Source: Bacteroidales bacterium
GTDB lineage: Bacteria; Bacteroidota; Bacteroidia; Bacteroidales; UBA932
Direction: 5' to 3'
DNA: 32,100 nucleotides
NCBI GenBank assembly: GCA_024402135.1
Contig: JAKSJN010000022.1
Span: 1 to 32,100 of the forward strand
Part shown: piece by piece, positions 5,917-23,705 of the stretch
How positions within the stretch are numbered: position 1 is the stretch's first letter
Layout of the letters: every line of letters begins with the position of its first letter
Notes under the pieces: model-generated
The model's database searches: none
What the model saw: the letters and a program-made list of their open reading frames with translations, nothing else
Told to the model about the DNA's origin: nothing
Program-made: the position numbers and the translations under genes

Positions 5917-8900
5917 ATGAGTAGCAAAAAACTCATGGCATTCATCGCGTCTATGTTCATTGCGGTGACTGCGTTTGCTCAGAGAGTCCAGGTTAGCGGA
6001 ACTGTGCTTGACGCATCCGGTCAGCCTGTCATCGGAGCAACTGTTCTTGAAGTGGGAGCTAAGGTTGTCAATGGCGTTGTCACTGACGTTGATGGAAAAT
6101 TCACCATCGGTGTTCCTGCCAACTCGTCTCTCCAGGTCGATTGCATCGGTTATGTGACCCAGACTGTCAAGGCCGCCAACGGTGTCGTTGTCATTCTCCA
6201 GGAAGACGCTGAACTTCTCGAGGAGACCGTAGTTGTGGGTTATGGTGTCCAGAGAAAGAGCGATCTTACCGGATCTGTGGCTTCTGTCAAGGCGGAGGAT
6301 CTTACTTCCCGTTCCGTAAGCGATGCTGCTTCTGCGCTTCAGGGAAAGGCCGCCGGTGTCCAGATTCTGAGCGCTTCAGGTGCTCCTGGCCAGAGCCAGT
6401 CTATCCGAGTACGTGGTATTTCATCCAACAGCAGTTCCGGTCTTGGTCCGCTTCTTATCGTCGATGGTTTGAAGGTGGACAACATCCAGTACCTCGATCC
6501 TGATATGATCGAGTCCATGGAGGTCCTCAAGGACGCCGCTTCTGCTGCAATCTATGGTGCACAGGCCGGTAACGGTGTCATCCTCATCACCACCAAGAGC
6601 GGTGCAAAGTCTAAGGATGGTACCATCTTCTACAATATGAAATACACTGTCACCAGTCTTGGACGTTATGCGCAGGTCATGAAGGCTGAGGATTATATCA
6701 ATTTCCAGCATCAGACCGGCAACCTCGGAACCAGAGAAGAAATCATCGAGAATGGCACCTGGGACGGTGTTACCGATACCAACTGGGCTGACGTGCTGTA
6801 TGGCAAGGGTATCACCCAGAACCACACACTGGGCTTCCAGGGCGGAAACGACCGCGGAAACTACTATCTTTCACTCAACTGGAACGACCAGAACGGTATG
6901 GCCCGTGGAGACAAGGATACCTACAAGCGTCTTACCGCACAGCTGAATGCCGACTACAAGATCAAGAAGTGGTTGACTGTCGGCACAAATACTTCTATCG
7001 AGAGAAATGAAAAGCAGAACCTTAGTGAAGGTTCCGAGTATTCAGGTTCAACTCTTCTCGGTACAGTCGTGCTTGACCCTCTTACCCCTGAGTATTTCAA
7101 GTCATTCGATGAACTTACCTCAGGAATGCAGAGAGCCATCCTGGCAGGTCAGCAGAAGGTCTACAGCCCTGCAGACCATCCTGACTGGTGGTATTCTACC
7201 TCAAAGATCAAGGAAGGTGATGCGATCAACCCTCTCATCGGAGTCATGAGAAACAACAGTAAGAGTGAGGGATGGAACATAAGAGGTACTGTCTTTGGAA
7301 ACCTGACTCCTGTCAAGAATCTTGTATTGACATCTCGTCTTGGATTCCGTATCGGCCAGAGCTACAGCAGCAATTTCAATGAGCCTTACTATGTGAACGA
7401 CAAGAACCACAGTGAGACATATTCGATCTCGGCCAGCTCAAGCCAGAACTACTACTATCAGTGGGAAAACTTTGCAAACTATACCGCAAAGATCGCCAGG
7501 AAGCATGATATCAGCGTGATGGGTGGTATGTCGTACACCTTCTCTGACAGCCGAGGCGTTAACGCCGGCCTTACCGGTACCGACCCTCTGAAGGGCTATG
7601 CAGAGAACTTCCTCTATATCTCACAGGACAATGGTTCAGGTATCAAGACCATCGGTGGCGGTACTCCAAGCCAGTCTTCACAGATTTCCTACTACGGTCG
7701 TCTTACCTATTCATACGACAACCGTTACAGTCTCCAGACCAACTTCCGTGCAGATGCATTCGACTCATCGAAGCTCTCGAAGACCAACCGCTGGGGCTAT
7801 TTCCCTTCAATTTCTGCAGGTTGGACAATCAGCAATGAGTCTTTCATCAAGGATAATATCGACAAGAACATCCTGAGCTTCCTCAAGATCCGCGCATCAT
7901 GGGGCCGCAACGGTAATATCGCGGTTCTTTCCGGTTATCCATACTCGACTTCTATTTCGTACAACAGCGAGAAGTATCAGTGGGATCCAGCTGATGACAC
8001 CATCGTATTCGGTTCAGTTCCTAGTGGTCTTGCCAATCCGAAGCTCAAGTGGGAGACATCCGAGCAGACCGACTTCGGTCTTGATATGAGATTGTTCAAC
8101 AACAGACTCTCATTCAGTGCTGACTGGTTCAACAAGGATACCAAGGACCTTCTTGTCAAGATCGCTCCTGTAGCGGAGGTCGGTATCAGCAGCACCACCG
8201 TCAACGCCGGATCAGTAAACAACAATGGTCTTGAGTTTGAGGCAGGATGGAAGGACAGTATCGGTGATCTGGGATACAGCATCAACGGTAACTTCTCTAC
8301 TCTCAACAACAAGGTTACTTATCTTGAGCCTTCTGTAGGACGTATCCAGGGCTCACATTTCTCAGACCACAAGCTTTACACCTACTTTGAGGAAGGCTAT
8401 CCAATCTGGTATCTCCGTGGTTACAAGTACATGGGTATGAATGACGAAGGAAATGCTCTTTACGAATCAAGCACAGGCGAACTGATCGAGAATCCTACTG
8501 ACAGTGACCTGACATTTATCGGCAGCGCTCTTCCTTCATTCACCTATGGTCTTACCCTCCACCTTGATTACAAAGACTTTGACCTCACCGTGTTCGGACA
8601 GGGTGCAGGTGGCAACACACTCGTTCCATGTATCTACCGTCCTCAGCATTCACAGATCAATGGTCTGAAGTACTTCCTTGACGAAGCTGGAAAGTCAATA
8701 CCGGAGGTCGGCAAGATGTACAACAGCGTTACGTTCTGGAGTTCATCAGCAACATGCTTCAAGGGTGACTACTTCAAGATCAAGCAGATCCAGATCGGCT
8801 ATACCATGCCTCGTGCGTGGACAAAGAAGGTTCTTATCAACACCCTTCGCGCTTATGTATCGTTTGATGACTATTTCCTTTTCACCAAGTATCCTGGCTT

Positions 8901-9006
8901 CGATCCTGAGACTGCATCAACCGGATCAAGCACTGGCAACGGTCTTGACAAGGGAACGTACCCTAATTCAAAGAAACTTCTCTTCGGTATCAATGTGTCA
9001 TTCTAA
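5917..9006 (+). CDS. SusC/RagA-like TonB-linked outer-membrane receptor
   Basis: Complete SusC receptor of 1029 aa. A signal peptide ends at about residue 22 (VTAFAQ). A carboxypeptidase-regulatory-like domain follows (VSGTVLDASGQPVIGATV to about residue 95), then a TonB-box-like segment (EETVVVGYGVQRK, residues 102-114), a plug domain (GVQILSASGAPGQSQSIRVRG and the DVIESMEVLKDAASAAIYG-type block) and a C-terminal barrel ending LLFGINVSF. No STN signalling domain lies between the signal peptide and the regulatory domain, so it should not signal directly to FecR. Its SusD partner starts 6 bp downstream. It is a paralog of the SusC fragment at 1-1014. Codon use looks strongly biased, as in well-expressed genes; this is an impression, not a calculation. 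Confidence 0.96.
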   Translation: MSSKKLMAFIASMFIAVTAFAQRVQVSGTVLDASGQPVIGATVLEVGAKVVNGVVTDVDGKFTIGVPANSSLQVDCIGYVTQTVKAANGVVVILQEDAELLEETVVVGYGVQRKSDLTGSVASVKAEDLTSRSVSDAASALQGKAAGVQILSASGAPGQSQSIRVRGISSNSSSGLGPLLIVDGLKVDNIQYLDPDMIESMEVLKDAASAAIYGAQAGNGVILITTKSGAKSKDGTIFYNMKYTVTSLGRYAQVMKAEDYINFQHQTGNLGTREEIIENGTWDGVTDTNWADVLYGKGITQNHTLGFQGGNDRGNYYLSLNWNDQNGMARGDKDTYKRLTAQLNADYKIKKWLTVGTNTSIERNEKQNLSEGSEYSGSTLLGTVVLDPLTPEYFKSFDELTSGMQRAILAGQQKVYSPADHPDWWYSTSKIKEGDAINPLIGVMRNNSKSEGWNIRGTVFGNLTPVKNLVLTSRLGFRIGQSYSSNFNEPYYVNDKNHSETYSISASSSQNYYYQWENFANYTAKIARKHDISVMGGMSYTFSDSRGVNAGLTGTDPLKGYAENFLYISQDNGSGIKTIGGGTPSQSSQISYYGRLTYSYDNRYSLQTNFRADAFDSSKLSKTNRWGYFPSISAGWTISNESFIKDNIDKNILSFLKIRASWGRNGNIAVLSGYPYSTSISYNSEKYQWDPADDTIVFGSVPSGLANPKLKWETSEQTDFGLDMRLFNNRLSFSADWFNKDTKDLLVKIAPVAEVGISSTTVNAGSVNNNGLEFEAGWKDSIGDLGYSINGNFSTLNNKVTYLEPSVGRIQGSHFSDHKLYTYFEEGYPIWYLRGYKYMGMNDEGNALYESSTGELIENPTDSDLTFIGSALPSFTYGLTLHLDYKDFDLTVFGQGAGGNTLVPCIYRPQHSQINGLKYFLDEAGKSIPEVGKMYNSVTFWSSSATCFKGDYFKIKQIQIGYTMPRAWTKKVLINTLRAYVSFDDYFLFTKYPGFDPETASTGSSTGNGLDKGTYPNSKKLLFGINVSF

Positions 9007-19942: not shown

Positions 19943-22366
19943 ATGGAAAACAATGCAGACGCTATTTTTGAAGGATTGAACAGCGAGCAGCGCAATGCTG
20001 TCGCATGTTTGGAGGGGCCGGTGCTGATAATAGCCGGAGCAGGTTCGGGAAAGACCCGTGTGTTGACTTCCAGAGTGGCCTATCTTCTTGAAAAGGGCTT
20101 TGATCCATCATCCATTCTGTGCCTTACTTTCACCAAGAAAGCGGCAACCGAGATGAAGGAAAGAATATCCCTGATGGTAGGCGAGAGAAGGGCAAGGAGG
20201 GTATGGATGGGCACATTCCATTCGGTATTCATCCGCTTCCTCCGCGAGTATGCGGAGAAACTCGGATATCCATCGTCATTCACGATCTATGACACCAGTG
20301 ACTCGGTCAGTGCGATCAAGTCATGTGTCAAGGAACTTCAGCTCGACGACAAGATCTACAAGCCGAAGGAGGTCCTTGCCAGGATTTCCATGGCGAAGAA
20401 TAACCTCATAACCGACCAGGTCTATCGCAACCGCTCGGAGATCACGATCGAGGACAGCCATTCGCGCAAGCCAAGAATCTGTGATATCTACTCGCTCTAC
20501 GTGAAGAAATGCCGTCAGAACGGTGTCATGGATTTCGATGACATCCTGCTGAACATGAACATACTTCTCCGCGACTTTCCGGAGGCACTTGAGGCAATCT
20601 CGGCCCGCTTCACCCACATCCTCGTGGATGAGTACCAGGATACAAACTTCTCCCAGTATCTGATCATAAAGAAGCTGAGCATGCATCACCGCAACATCTG
20701 CGTTGTGGGTGACGATTCGCAGTCGATCTACGCTTTCCGTGGCGCCAAGATCGAGAACATACTCAATTTCAGGAAGGACTATCCCGAGGCCAGGCTGTTC
20801 AAGCTTGAACGCAACTATCGCTCGACAGGAAACATCGTCAATGCCGCAAATTCACTGATCGACAAGAACAAGAACCGTCTGCCGAAAGAGTGTTACTCGG
20901 TCGGTGAAGATGGCGACAAGATAAGGCTCATAAAATCATACAGCGAACAGGAGGAAGCTGTCCTCATTACCAGTGGAATACTTGATACGGTACGTAAGGA
21001 AAGCGCCAGATATCAGGATTTTGCGATTCTTTACAGGACAAATGCCCAGTCAAGAGCCCTGGAGGAGGCGCTGCGAAAGCGCAACATCCCGTACATGATT
21101 TATTCCGGCAATTCCTTCTTCGACAGAGCCGAGGTGAAGGACCTCATGGCATACTTCAAGCTTGTGGTCAACCCTAATGACGACGAGTCGTTCAAGAGAG
21201 TCGTCAACAAGCCCGCACGAGGCATAGGCGGCACTTCCGAAGACGCGCTTGCAATGGCAGCCAGAACTCTTGGCTGTACTCTTTTCCGAGCTGTCTATTC
21301 TGAGCGTCTGCTGGACTTCGGGCTGAAGAGCGCGGCGATAGCCAAGCTCCGTGCCTTCACAGACATGATCGACAGGCTCTCCCAGCTGGTCGCTACGACC
21401 GATGCCGAGACGTTGGCCAAGAAAATAGCTGATGACAGCGGGCTCTATCGTTTCTACAGGGAGGACACCAGTATTGAAGGCCAGGCCAGGACGGCAAATG
21501 TCGAGGAACTTGTAAGCAGCGTGGCTTCCTATGTCCAGGATCGCAAGGCTGAGTTCGAGGCTGAACAGGAATCCGAGGGAACCGTCGGCGAGATGCCGGT
21601 CGTGAGGCTTGACGAATTCCTTGAGAACATATCTCTTCTCAGCAATATCGACATTGAAGATGAGGAGGATACCAATAACAAGGTATCCCTCATGACAGTT
21701 CATTCCTCCAAGGGTCTGGAGTTTCCGTATGTATATGTGGCCGGAATGGAGGAAAACCTGTTCCCTTCAGGTGGTTCGCTCGCTTCATCTTCCGATATCG
21801 AGGAAGAAAGGCGCCTGTTTTACGTTGCCATCACCCGTGCAGGCCGTAAGCTGGCACTGAGCTTCGCAGACAGCCGAATGCGCAATGGCAAGACCGAGAA
21901 CAACTCGCCGAGCCGTTTCATACGAGAGATAGACAGCCGCTACATCGAGAATCCTCTTGAGGAGGCTCGTGTGTTCGGAGGCGGAGGAACTCAGTCATTC
22001 AGTACAGGAAGGAACTCTTATGGCCAATCCGGAAGGCCCGTAAGGATGCCTCGCCAAGGTTTGCCGCAGCAATCTCAGTATGGATCACGGCAGTCTGCTC
22101 CCGCGTCTCGTCCGTCGATACAGTCGCGCCCTTCAGTTCCGGCTGCACCGCAGGGAAACAGATACAATGAGGCGACTTTCATCGCGGCACCTATGGCGTC
22201 TTTTTCCATCGGGCAGCGCATCGAGCATCTCCGTTTCGGCCCGGGAATGATCCTGGATCTCAGTGGACGTGTCCCGGATGTCAAGGCAAAGATAAAGTTC
22301 GATGATTTCCCGGAACCCAAGATAATTCTCCTCAAATATGCCAAGATGAGAGCGGAGGAGAAGTGA
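19943..22366 (+). CDS. pcrA: ATP-dependent 3'-5' DNA helicase, UvrD/PcrA family
   Basis: Superfamily 1A helicase of 807 aa for DNA repair and replication restart. Motifs in order: Q motif LNSEQRNAV (12-20), Walker A AGAGSGKT (31-38), Ia LTFTKKAATEMK, Walker B DEYQD (from residue 229), III GDDSQSIYAFRGA, IV ERNYRSTGNI, V MTVHSSKGLEFPYVYV and VI ERRLFYVAITRA. A low-complexity Q/S/P/R linker (about 680-750) leads to a Tudor-like C-terminal domain (IGQRIEHLRFGPGMI to the end) that in PcrA contacts RNA polymerase. The start at 19943 matches the family's N-terminus. It diverges from nqrA with a 96-bp gap. Whether to name it pcrA or uvrD is a convention. Confidence 0.96.
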   Translation: MENNADAIFEGLNSEQRNAVACLEGPVLIIAGAGSGKTRVLTSRVAYLLEKGFDPSSILCLTFTKKAATEMKERISLMVGERRARRVWMGTFHSVFIRFLREYAEKLGYPSSFTIYDTSDSVSAIKSCVKELQLDDKIYKPKEVLARISMAKNNLITDQVYRNRSEITIEDSHSRKPRICDIYSLYVKKCRQNGVMDFDDILLNMNILLRDFPEALEAISARFTHILVDEYQDTNFSQYLIIKKLSMHHRNICVVGDDSQSIYAFRGAKIENILNFRKDYPEARLFKLERNYRSTGNIVNAANSLIDKNKNRLPKECYSVGEDGDKIRLIKSYSEQEEAVLITSGILDTVRKESARYQDFAILYRTNAQSRALEEALRKRNIPYMIYSGNSFFDRAEVKDLMAYFKLVVNPNDDESFKRVVNKPARGIGGTSEDALAMAARTLGCTLFRAVYSERLLDFGLKSAAIAKLRAFTDMIDRLSQLVATTDAETLAKKIADDSGLYRFYREDTSIEGQARTANVEELVSSVASYVQDRKAEFEAEQESEGTVGEMPVVRLDEFLENISLLSNIDIEDEEDTNNKVSLMTVHSSKGLEFPYVYVAGMEENLFPSGGSLASSSDIEEERRLFYVAITRAGRKLALSFADSRMRNGKTENNSPSRFIREIDSRYIENPLEEARVFGGGGTQSFSTGRNSYGQSGRPVRMPRQGLPQQSQYGSRQSAPASRPSIQSRPSVPAAPQGNRYNEATFIAAPMASFSIGQRIEHLRFGPGMILDLSGRVPDVKAKIKFDDFPEPKIILLKYAKMRAEEK

Positions 22367-22373
22367 GAAATAA

Positions 22374-22404
22374 TTTGGTAACTACAAAATTATGATTACT
22401 TTTG
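22374..22404 (+). promoter_or_regulatory. Consensus Bacteroidota promoter (-33 TTTG, 19-bp spacer, -7 TACTTTTG)
   Basis: TTTG at 22374-22377 and TACTTTTG at 22397-22404 are separated by exactly 19 bp, the known spacing of the phylum's housekeeping promoter. It is the only complete -33/-7 pair noticed in the window. It begins 8 bp after the pcrA stop. It predicts transcription start near 22410, just ahead of a gene-free hairpin. Confidence 0.75.
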
Positions 22405-22409
22405 CCTTG

Positions 22410-22492
22410 AAGTTTTTCATAGTTTAAGTTTAGGTTAAGTAGCGGGATCGAACGTAGTGATACGACGGTCCCGCAATTTTTTATCTTTTTTT
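22410..22492 (+). ncRNA. Candidate small RNA, about 80 nt
   Basis: A consensus promoter at 22374-22404 is followed after about 80 nt by a strong terminator hairpin, and no ORF lies between. The 5' part is U- and A-rich with a near-repeat (GTTTAA, GTTTAG, GTTAAG at 22422-22440). The 3' part is the hairpin of 22442-22474 with a U-rich end. I do not recognise it. The plan of promoter, hairpin and terminator resembles small RNAs predicted in Bacteroidales, such as the Bacteroidales-1 motif, but I cannot claim that match. It may instead be a leader or attenuator for the gene at 22623, or simply the pcrA terminator beside an unrelated promoter. Confidence 0.5.
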
Positions 22493-22495
22493 ACG
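22442..22495 (+). terminator. Intrinsic terminator with GNRA-capped two-part hairpin
   Basis: The outer 9-bp stem is GCGGGATCG (22442-22450) with CGGTCCCGC (22466-22474), one G-T pair. An internal loop (AA opposite A) follows, then an inner 4-bp stem CGTA/TACG closed by a GTGA (GNRA) tetraloop. Downstream is AATTTTTTATCTTTTTTT. It can end the candidate small RNA and also pcrA read-through. Confidence 0.85.
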
Positions 22496-22578
22496 CTCCG
22501 CTGAATGTCAAAAAGACAAAAGATAGGTTTTTGTTAAAAATTGAAATATTTTCGGGGCTGAACGACTTCCGGCATGGA

Positions 22579-22622: not shown

Positions 22623-23705
22623 ATGCTTATGAGAACAAAAAGACAACATTTCGTGCCAATGGCACTCCTGTCGTTGCTGCTGGCTTCTTCGTGCAATGAA
22701 TGGCTTACGCCTCTGGGACAGGGCGAGCTGACATTCAGCTTCAACCCTGATGTAAGATCCATGATCACCAAATCTGCTGTCAGCGCAATCCCTGATACGA
22801 ACAATTTCATACTGAAGGTAAGTGATGCCTCTGGTAAGGCTCTGTACGAGGGACTCTATTCTTCTGTGCCGGAACCGATGAGTCTGGATCCAGGCAGCTA
22901 CACTGTCCGTGCAGTCTCGAATGCATTCAGTAAACCTGATTTTTCAATTCCTCAGTTCGGTGATGAACAGCTTGTCGTCATCAAGGCAGGGGAGCGTACC
23001 GATGTGTCACTCAACTGTGTAAGGATGAATGCCGGAATAAGACTGAAGATAGCATCCTCCTTCATTGAGAACTGTCCTTCAGCTGTGCTGTTTCTCAAAA
23101 ACTCCGCCGGTAAGCTGATGTACTCGTACCGTGAGTCGAGATTCGCCTATTTCGCTCCTGGCAATGTTTCTCTTGTGATGAATGAGGACGGTGCCGACAA
23201 GGTGCTTGATACGCGTCTTATGGATGCGGGTGACATGCTGACTCTCAATGTGTCGGCGTCATCCAAAAGCTCGGTCGGCAAGGGCATCTCGATAGGGGTG
23301 GATACGACCGGCAACTGGATTACCGACAGCTATGTGATAGGTGGTCCCGGCAATGGTGGGTCGTCGGGTGAGACTCTGGGCGTAAATGATGCCAGGAATG
23401 CGATTGGCAAGACCGGGGTATGGGTTACAGGATATATCGTAGGAGGGGATATGTCTTCGTCGAAAATCAAATTCACCGGCCCCTTCTCTTCCCAGACCCA
23501 TGTAGCAATCGCCGGCCGTTCCTCCTGTACGGACAGGGATATGTGCATGTCGGTTCAGCTTAACAAGGGAGACATAAGGGACAATCTGAATATCGCTTCG
23601 AATCCATCCAATCTCGGCCGCAAGGTGTACGTAAAAGGGGATATCGTAGCTTCATACTACGGTATCCCCGGTATTCAGAATATTACTGAGTACAGGATTG
23701 AATGA
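22623..23705 (+). CDS. Surface lipoprotein with DUF4493 and DUF6359 domains
   Basis: Lipoprotein of about 360 aa of unknown function. The signal peptide ends in lipobox ASSC. The N-terminal half is a DUF4493-like beta domain (GQGELTFSFNPD, then LDPGSYTVRAVSN and INAGIRLKI-like strands), a pattern common in Bacteroidales outer-surface proteins. The C-terminal third is DUF6359-like and probably OB-fold (GVWVTGYIVGGDMSSSKIKF, then GRKVYVKGDIVASYYGIPGI). A Gly-rich linker joins them near residue 240. ATG 22623 and ATG 22629 are both plausible; the upstream TTG at 22584 is rejected because it sits inside the -7 element. It runs convergent with the M16 peptidase, with only 14 bp between the stops and no visible terminator. 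Confidence 0.75.
   Translation: MLMRTKRQHFVPMALLSLLLASSCNEWLTPLGQGELTFSFNPDVRSMITKSAVSAIPDTNNFILKVSDASGKALYEGLYSSVPEPMSLDPGSYTVRAVSNAFSKPDFSIPQFGDEQLVVIKAGERTDVSLNCVRMNAGIRLKIASSFIENCPSAVLFLKNSAGKLMYSYRESRFAYFAPGNVSLVMNEDGADKVLDTRLMDAGDMLTLNVSASSKSSVGKGISIGVDTTGNWITDSYVIGGPGNGGSSGETLGVNDARNAIGKTGVWVTGYIVGGDMSSSKIKFTGPFSSQTHVAIAGRSSCTDRDMCMSVQLNKGDIRDNLNIASNPSNLGRKVYVKGDIVASYYGIPGIQNITEYRIE

Follow-up and report, generated by a model that had tools for sequence, protein, structure and literature searches.

Does the short intergenic stretch behind pcrA in the genome of this uncultured gut Bacteroidales bacterium encode a small RNA (sRNA) of its own, or does it merely serve its neighbors? A preliminary description of the window (the whole 32,100-nt stretch of DNA analyzed here) had read it as a compact promoter-to-terminator unit, the gene of a candidate new sRNA of about 80 nt. 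The promoter is where it had been placed. A TTTG box begins 8 nt past the pcrA stop (22366) and is followed, across a spacer of 19 nt, by TACTTTTG, in agreement with the σABfr consensus TAnnTTTG/TTTG (PMC7366714, excerpt). As had also been stated, this is the sole full-consensus promoter in the window (a single match to TTTG-N18..21-TAnnTTTG). By itself the match would be weak evidence for a gene: the expected number is 0.13, and one occurs in 13 of 100 shuffled windows. The unit stands beyond chance because of its conservation, not because of the promoter match. It is indeed free of ORFs (none of at least 50 aa over 22409-22483 on either strand), and the GTTTAA/GTTTAG/GTTAAG near-repeats that had been pointed out are present in its 5' part. 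The features are collected in Table 1.

Table 1. Features of the sRNA locus and its neighbors (positions in the window)
Feature	Position	Strand	Evidence or remark
-33 box TTTG, σABfr-type promoter	22374..22377	+	TTG close to place in 60/73 sequences
-7 box TACTTTTG (consensus TAnnTTTG)	22397..22404	+	TAnnTTnG, exact same place in 58/73 sequences
5' unpaired, nearly invariant region, proposed seed GAAGUUUUUCAU...	22409..22440	+	1.71-2.00 bits/column, 73 sequences
Terminator hairpin: 9 bp + 2x1 internal loop + 4 bp + GUGA loop	22442..22474	+	Fold; stem covariation
U-tract, transcript end ~22483	22477..22482	+	Conservation at background from 22483 on
pcrA/uvrD-type helicase gene, upstream neighbor	19943..22366	+	UvrD-helicase, UvrD_C
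DUF4493-DUF6359 lipoprotein-like gene, downstream neighbor	22623..23705	+	Same family downstream in many relatives; ATG at 22623 or 22629; domain search from 22626

We infer a transcription start at 22408-22410, coincident with the front of the conserved 5' region. In the predicted fold the first 23 nt of the RNA are unpaired, and the arms of the outer 9-bp stem are 22442-22450 and 22466-22474. The hairpin had been described exactly, from its two stems and internal loop to the tetraloop and U-tract; its fold z-score is -3.24, with 1 of 200 shuffles equally stable, and it is absent from the list of a simple terminator scan of the window. Across 73 distinct sequences, selected by an exact 23-nt core (22412-22434), conservation is 0.40 bits/column upstream, 0.42 in the spacer and 1.19 in the -7 box: the promoter boxes are kept across relatives while the spacer drifts, and TAnnTTnG stands at the right distance in 62 of the 73 copies, which we count as having their own σABfr promoter. 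Conservation then rises to 1.79 at 22409 and to 2.00 throughout 22410-22437 (28 consecutive invariant letters), stays at 1.71-1.79 on to 22440, drops to 0.70 in the hairpin and is below 0.2 from 22483 onward. Part of the invariance inside a selection core follows from the selection itself, an effect that does not touch columns 22409-22411 and 22435-22440 or the pcrA-anchored count given below. Because the columns flanking the 22412-22434 core are about equally conserved, the conservation is more than a product of selection. Alignment A1 (60 rows) was selected by an exact 26-nt core, for want of which 5 of 75 blast hits were left out: a contig end truncates one, another is an intermediate in G050, two are sister-type copies and one is a chance hit.

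In the relatives, 90.1% of the 832 cells of a 14-bp stem are paired, with double-sided changes in 13 of the 14 pairs. The stem covariation of 0.543 compares with 0.213 after shuffling (0/500 reach the real value) and with at most 0.152 for slid versions. Thus, compensatory stem changes and a conserved promoter, the two signs for which a covariance search had been suggested, were both found in relatives, and the pattern named as a refutation, conservation of the terminator stem only, is the opposite of what we observed: the 5' part and the -7 box outdo the stem sequence. One element did not survive this comparison. The GNRA loop, which had been regarded as a special feature, is often GUGA but is swapped for other loops in some relatives, for example TTTT (L036) or ATCT (L059), which rules it out as a functional motif. 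Conservation bears out the proposal of a discrete unit, with a predicted length of ~75-80 nt and a U/A-rich 5' part that could pair. On this comparative evidence the locus shows itself to be a putative sRNA gene, more than a mere terminator.

A blastn search with 22367-22500 found the sRNA in 33 of 61 genomes; 30 of these are among the 37 of the same genus (the window's own counted) and 3 among the 24 of other families. Of 150 genomes of the genus with a completeness of at least 90%, 144 gave a match of the R1 covariance model, built here, to the sRNA or a close paralogue. Counted by hand, 103 of those 150 have a best match at E<=1e-8, 41 have weaker matches only, of the strength that a sister RNA (see below) gives, and 6 have none. 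The same model gave a single match in the sRNA's own genome and 0-4 per genome across the genus (L110 carries two tandem copies); of 295 genomes sampled from the whole order, 73 contain the sRNA or relatives. When 80 loci from named genomes were anchored on pcrA, 34 had the core 37-132 nt past the pcrA stop on the same strand, 33 of them without a mismatch over 27 nt (L089 has one). At three pcrA loci the sRNA lies elsewhere in the fetched DNA (~2 kb on in L032 and L108; on the opposite strand in L085). The remaining loci have no copy behind pcrA with up to 6 edits allowed; at L104 the sequence downstream of pcrA is 43 nt long. Two further genera of the family likewise have the sRNA behind pcrA, at 100 nt (L152) and 471 nt (L153) from the end of the pcrA match, with pcrA proteins 42% and 38% identical to that of the window. 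In the species that share the seed, the pcrA protein mostly has 38-64% identity to that of the window, and we judge a nearly invariant 30-nt seed despite such divergence to be unusual and to point to many simultaneous targets. The closest named pcrA (L031, 94%) comes from a Bacteroidales MAG of horse faeces, and several other relatives are named Cryptobacteroides; the window may belong to this group or lie close to it. Mobile or phage spread of this variant was rejected, as the exact core is absent from viral contigs and neither plasmids nor phages gave a blastn match at E<=0.01. A literature search on Cryptobacteroides small RNAs returned no paper naming Cryptobacteroides among the best-ranked open-licence matches, and one on a pcrA-linked conserved Bacteroidales small RNA returned nothing among them.

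Whether the sRNA is new, as the preliminary description had it, depends on the level considered. An Rfam scan of the window gave no family at its cut-off, so to that extent the word holds; at a greater distance the RNA appears to be a relative of FopS (RF04319), and to that extent it does not. FopS is the best sub-threshold match (26.2 bits versus a gathering threshold of 56; E 0.016 in a 101-nt search), covering positions 1-71 of the 71 in the model and starting at 22410. Over the whole of the sRNA's own genome, the FopS model finds nothing at E<=0.01. Among the 37 genomes of the genus, 8 have weak matches to it (E 0.001-0.01), of which three are at the window's locus type (G007, G009 and G011) and five at the sister type; 8 further loci of the window's type gave no match at E<=0.5. 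In the reverse direction, the R1 covariance model hits five of the six loci with FopS over the cut-off (L111-L115; E 9e-4 to 0.06, 50 kb), and the sixth, L116, has E 0.48.

Three bridging sequences, intermediates from other families, seem to us a stronger argument for kinship than the direct match. L168, found by the R1 covariance model at E 4e-7, has a FopS score of 60.7, above the cut-off of 56, and L117 and L177, both found by the same model, score 43 and 44.8. Side by side, the seeds read GUUUUUCAUGGUAUUAGAUUUAAGGUUAA (FopS, L111), GUUUUUCAUAGUUUAAGAUUUUAGGUUAA (L117), GUUUUUCAUAGUUUAAGUUUAGGUUAA (window) and UUUUUUCAUAGUUAAGGUUUAGGUUAA (type B, other families). From this series of similarities we conclude that the window's putative sRNA is homologous to FopS, yet outside the Rfam family as defined. 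Most of L154-L176, from other Bacteroidales families, are the type B relatives, which consist of AAATTTTTTCATAGTTAAGGTTTAGGTTAAA plus a hairpin. Against FopS, L158 scores 33.4 bits, and L154 and L162 are without a match at E<=0.5; it is possible that type B constitutes a separate Rfam family.

Like FopS of Bacteroides thetaiotaomicron, the RNA has an unpaired 5' part of the form (G)UUUUUCAU(A/G)GU...AGGUUAA followed by a terminator hairpin. Both have a σABfr promoter; the predicted length is ~75 nt, that of FopS ~65-70 nt (PMC11697453, excerpt). Unlike FopS, with its 12-15 copies per genome, the sRNA has one copy per genome here, and its seed is two letters shorter and differs in its first letters. 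Two other Rfam families gave faint matches: GibS (RF04182; 17.8 bits versus a gathering threshold of 115), whose model is twice as long, and BTnc231 (RF04180; 20.5 bits versus a cut-off of 80.4), whose model is also longer (154 nt). GibS has an R1-type 5' end in common with FopS (PMC11697453, excerpt) and in addition a second seed of its own, R2, and a PM2 promoter (excerpts of PMC11697453 and PMC7366714). FopS has been called highly conserved within Bacteroidaceae on the basis of BLASTn at word size 28 (PMC11697453, excerpt); the relatives found here extend over many Bacteroidales families. The main text of PMC11697453 does not mention pcrA, Prevotella or Parabacteroides. Among the open-licence matches listed, the papers naming FopS are PMC11697453, the discovery paper, and PMC12119571, which cites it (PMC12119571, excerpt).

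How might such an RNA act? The locus is probably a stand-alone sRNA gene whose product represses by start-codon pairing, although we infer its expression, exact ends, repression and targets; the basis from this analysis is a sharp-edged conserved unit, stem covariation, homology to FopS and an in silico preference for start sites. A transcript from ~22409 to ~22483 would be driven by its own σABfr-type promoter, and its conserved unpaired 5' end, GAAGUUUUUCAUAGUUUAAGUUUAGGUUAAG, would be the seed. On an mRNA, the CAU of the seed and the U-run before it would base-pair over the start codon and the codons that open the reading frame (AUG-AAA-AA...), and the seed's A/U part would bind immediately upstream of the start codon. 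By analogy with what has been published for the distant relative FopS, this pairing would block ribosome entry. The hairpin would end and protect the RNA, and its sequence would be free to change.

The UUUUUCAU of the seed is complementary to AUG-AAA-AA, with which genes for exported proteins commonly begin. Pairing energies were computed on contig C1, which represents 15% of the genome and on which gene starts were assigned by simple rules with no gene finder. Among its 321 genes, 15 start sites reach -16 or lower, compared with 3.8 for dinucleotide shuffles of the seed (0/100 reach the real count); internal windows have no excess at the same threshold (4 versus 4.3). When CAU was kept in the shuffles, 11/60 reached the real count at -16 and 0/60 at -20, and 30/60 matched the real seed in mean start-site energy. 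When UUUUUCAU was kept, the excess at -16 was gone (35/60), 6/60 reached the count at -20 and 48/60 were as good or better in mean energy. The difference between start site and internal AUG, taken over 320 C1 genes, is -0.48 kcal/mol for the real seed versus +1.01 (sd 0.40) for CAU-kept shuffles, none of 150 of which reach it. The same test gave +0.17 for a FopS seed, -0.05 for a type B seed and -0.07 for a sister seed, each also under the shuffle mean. What distinguishes the real seed is its avoidance of internal AUGs and a few strongest sites, a result that fits a seed tuned to start sites. Start-codon pairing leading to translational repression is the best mechanism on this in silico basis, and the targets it suggests are candidates.

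Three kinds of candidate were considered, with gene starts in the relatives and at the SusC and DUF4493 loci likewise assigned by simple rules. The strongest C1 site (-26.9) belongs to an alpha/beta-hydrolase family gene and was rejected, as it is not conserved: 0/18 scored relatives are under -16.4, two loci without a scorable ORF being left out. SusC genes, the published targets of FopS, which binds near start codons (PMC11697453, excerpt), showed no energetic preference in silico across 17 loci (one a fragment), with first-ATG energies of -5.8 to -14.7; one reaches -16.4 at its second ATG. The window itself contains a SusC/RagA-type outer-membrane protein gene at 5989-9003 and a fragment of one at 43-1011, at the contig start, and the genome has 30 SusC/RagA-type matches, 16 of them over the family cut-off. 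For the adjacent DUF4493 gene, 7 of 28 start sites are at or below -16 versus 0.6 expected (0/300 CAU-kept shuffles), and a Mann-Whitney test against 67 lipoprotein-like genes gives P 0.008, with the reservation that this excess was noticed after the fact and the relatives are not independent. The window's own DUF4493 start site reaches only -10.4. This is suggestive of the DUF4493 gene as a target in some species, not in the window itself. At L020 (G001), a DUF4493 start site ~100 nt downstream of the sRNA pairs at -23.2 kcal/mol and is a possible local target. A genus-wide search for the seed complement gave scattered matches beyond the sRNA genes themselves; the reversed pattern gives 20.

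Of the other ways to read the locus, the one that survives best, though we hold it improbable, is a sponge or decoy whose invariant 5' part is the site of an RNA-binding protein and no antisense seed. The 28 consecutive invariant letters seem beyond the needs of one seed, and in B. theta the RRM-1 protein RbpB binds the 5' portions of FopS and antagonizes it (PMC11697453, excerpt). However, no RRM_1 protein was found in the sRNA's own genome (98.1% complete) or, with some assemblies incomplete, in 36 of the 37 genomes of the genus. The search was able to find such proteins, since 16 of the 24 genomes from other families and a single member of the genus gave a match; G056 and G060, two of the six genomes with FopS over the cut-off, also lack RRM_1. 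Unlike FopS in Bacteroides, the sRNA must work without an RbpB-type RRM protein in most of the genus. A decoy would also leave the preference for start sites over internal AUGs unexplained. Protein binding and antisense seeding may coexist, and a genus that keeps the sRNA nearly letter for letter without the FopS-antagonizing RRM type offers a natural test of the purpose of RbpB.

It is rather unlikely that the unit is a cis element, either the pcrA terminator only or a leader or attenuator of the lipoprotein gene that follows. Transcripts of pcrA can end at the hairpin, and a DUF4493 gene lies downstream on the same strand in 23 of 32 sRNA-bearing pcrA loci with at least 1.5 kb downstream. 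Against this, the unit has its own promoter boxes at conserved places and a 5' part far more conserved than its stem, copies also occur away from pcrA (L032, L108 and L085, above), and at 21 of 63 loci the ORF that comes next is convergent, on the other strand. In eight loci (L033, L038, L052, L055, L058, L100, L101 and L102), moreover, the DUF4493 lipoprotein gene comes directly after pcrA, at 75-176 nt, and the sRNA is missing; this clean absence indicates gain or loss of the sRNA as a unit. Equally unlikely is genuine orthology to FopS with SusC repression unaltered from Bacteroides: the homology, the type of promoter and the layout agree with it, but the RNA is under the Rfam cut-off, has one copy and no RRM_1 protein in its genome, and shows no preference for SusC start sites in silico. 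Finally, a very short peptide gene, although a six-codon frame (TTG AAG TTT TTC ATA GTT TAA at 22408) can be read in the window, is ruled out, as the column of the first TTG base (22408) is variable (0.87 bits) and all codon positions from 22410 are invariant, a pattern unlike coding constraint.

Beyond repression by a stand-alone sRNA, we offer a wider picture that is possible but tentative. Across the order Bacteroidales there may be an sRNA superfamily whose common feature is a 5' end antisense to start codons, with FopS as one of its branches. In this genus the superfamily would do without RbpB and have one copy under a housekeeping promoter and, in many species, a sister copy under σ54 control, so that the same type of seed would answer constitutive and enhancer-driven signals; the targets would be genes for the envelope and for lipoproteins, in some species with the adjacent DUF4493 gene among them.

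The sister sRNA, with the seed ATAGTTTTTTCATAGGTTAA(A/G)TTTTAGGTTAG or close variants, occurs in 24 of 41 genus genomes (L200-L227); in the genome studied here there is none at up to 3 mismatches. Among the best-ranked open-licence matches, no title concerned σ54-driven Bacteroides sRNAs. A σ54-like TGGCAC-N5-TTGCA box (at least 9/11 letters) precedes 24 of the 27 sister copies with enough upstream sequence and ends 14-16 nt before TAG, its best score being matched in 0.19% of shuffled upstream regions; the remaining 3 of the 27 carry a TATATTT-type box. Among the 73 copies of the window's type, four (L109, two in L110, and L153) also have a σ54-like box (10/11), 11-12 nt before the transcript. 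These divergent pcrA-linked loci represent a promoter swap before an unchanged seed.
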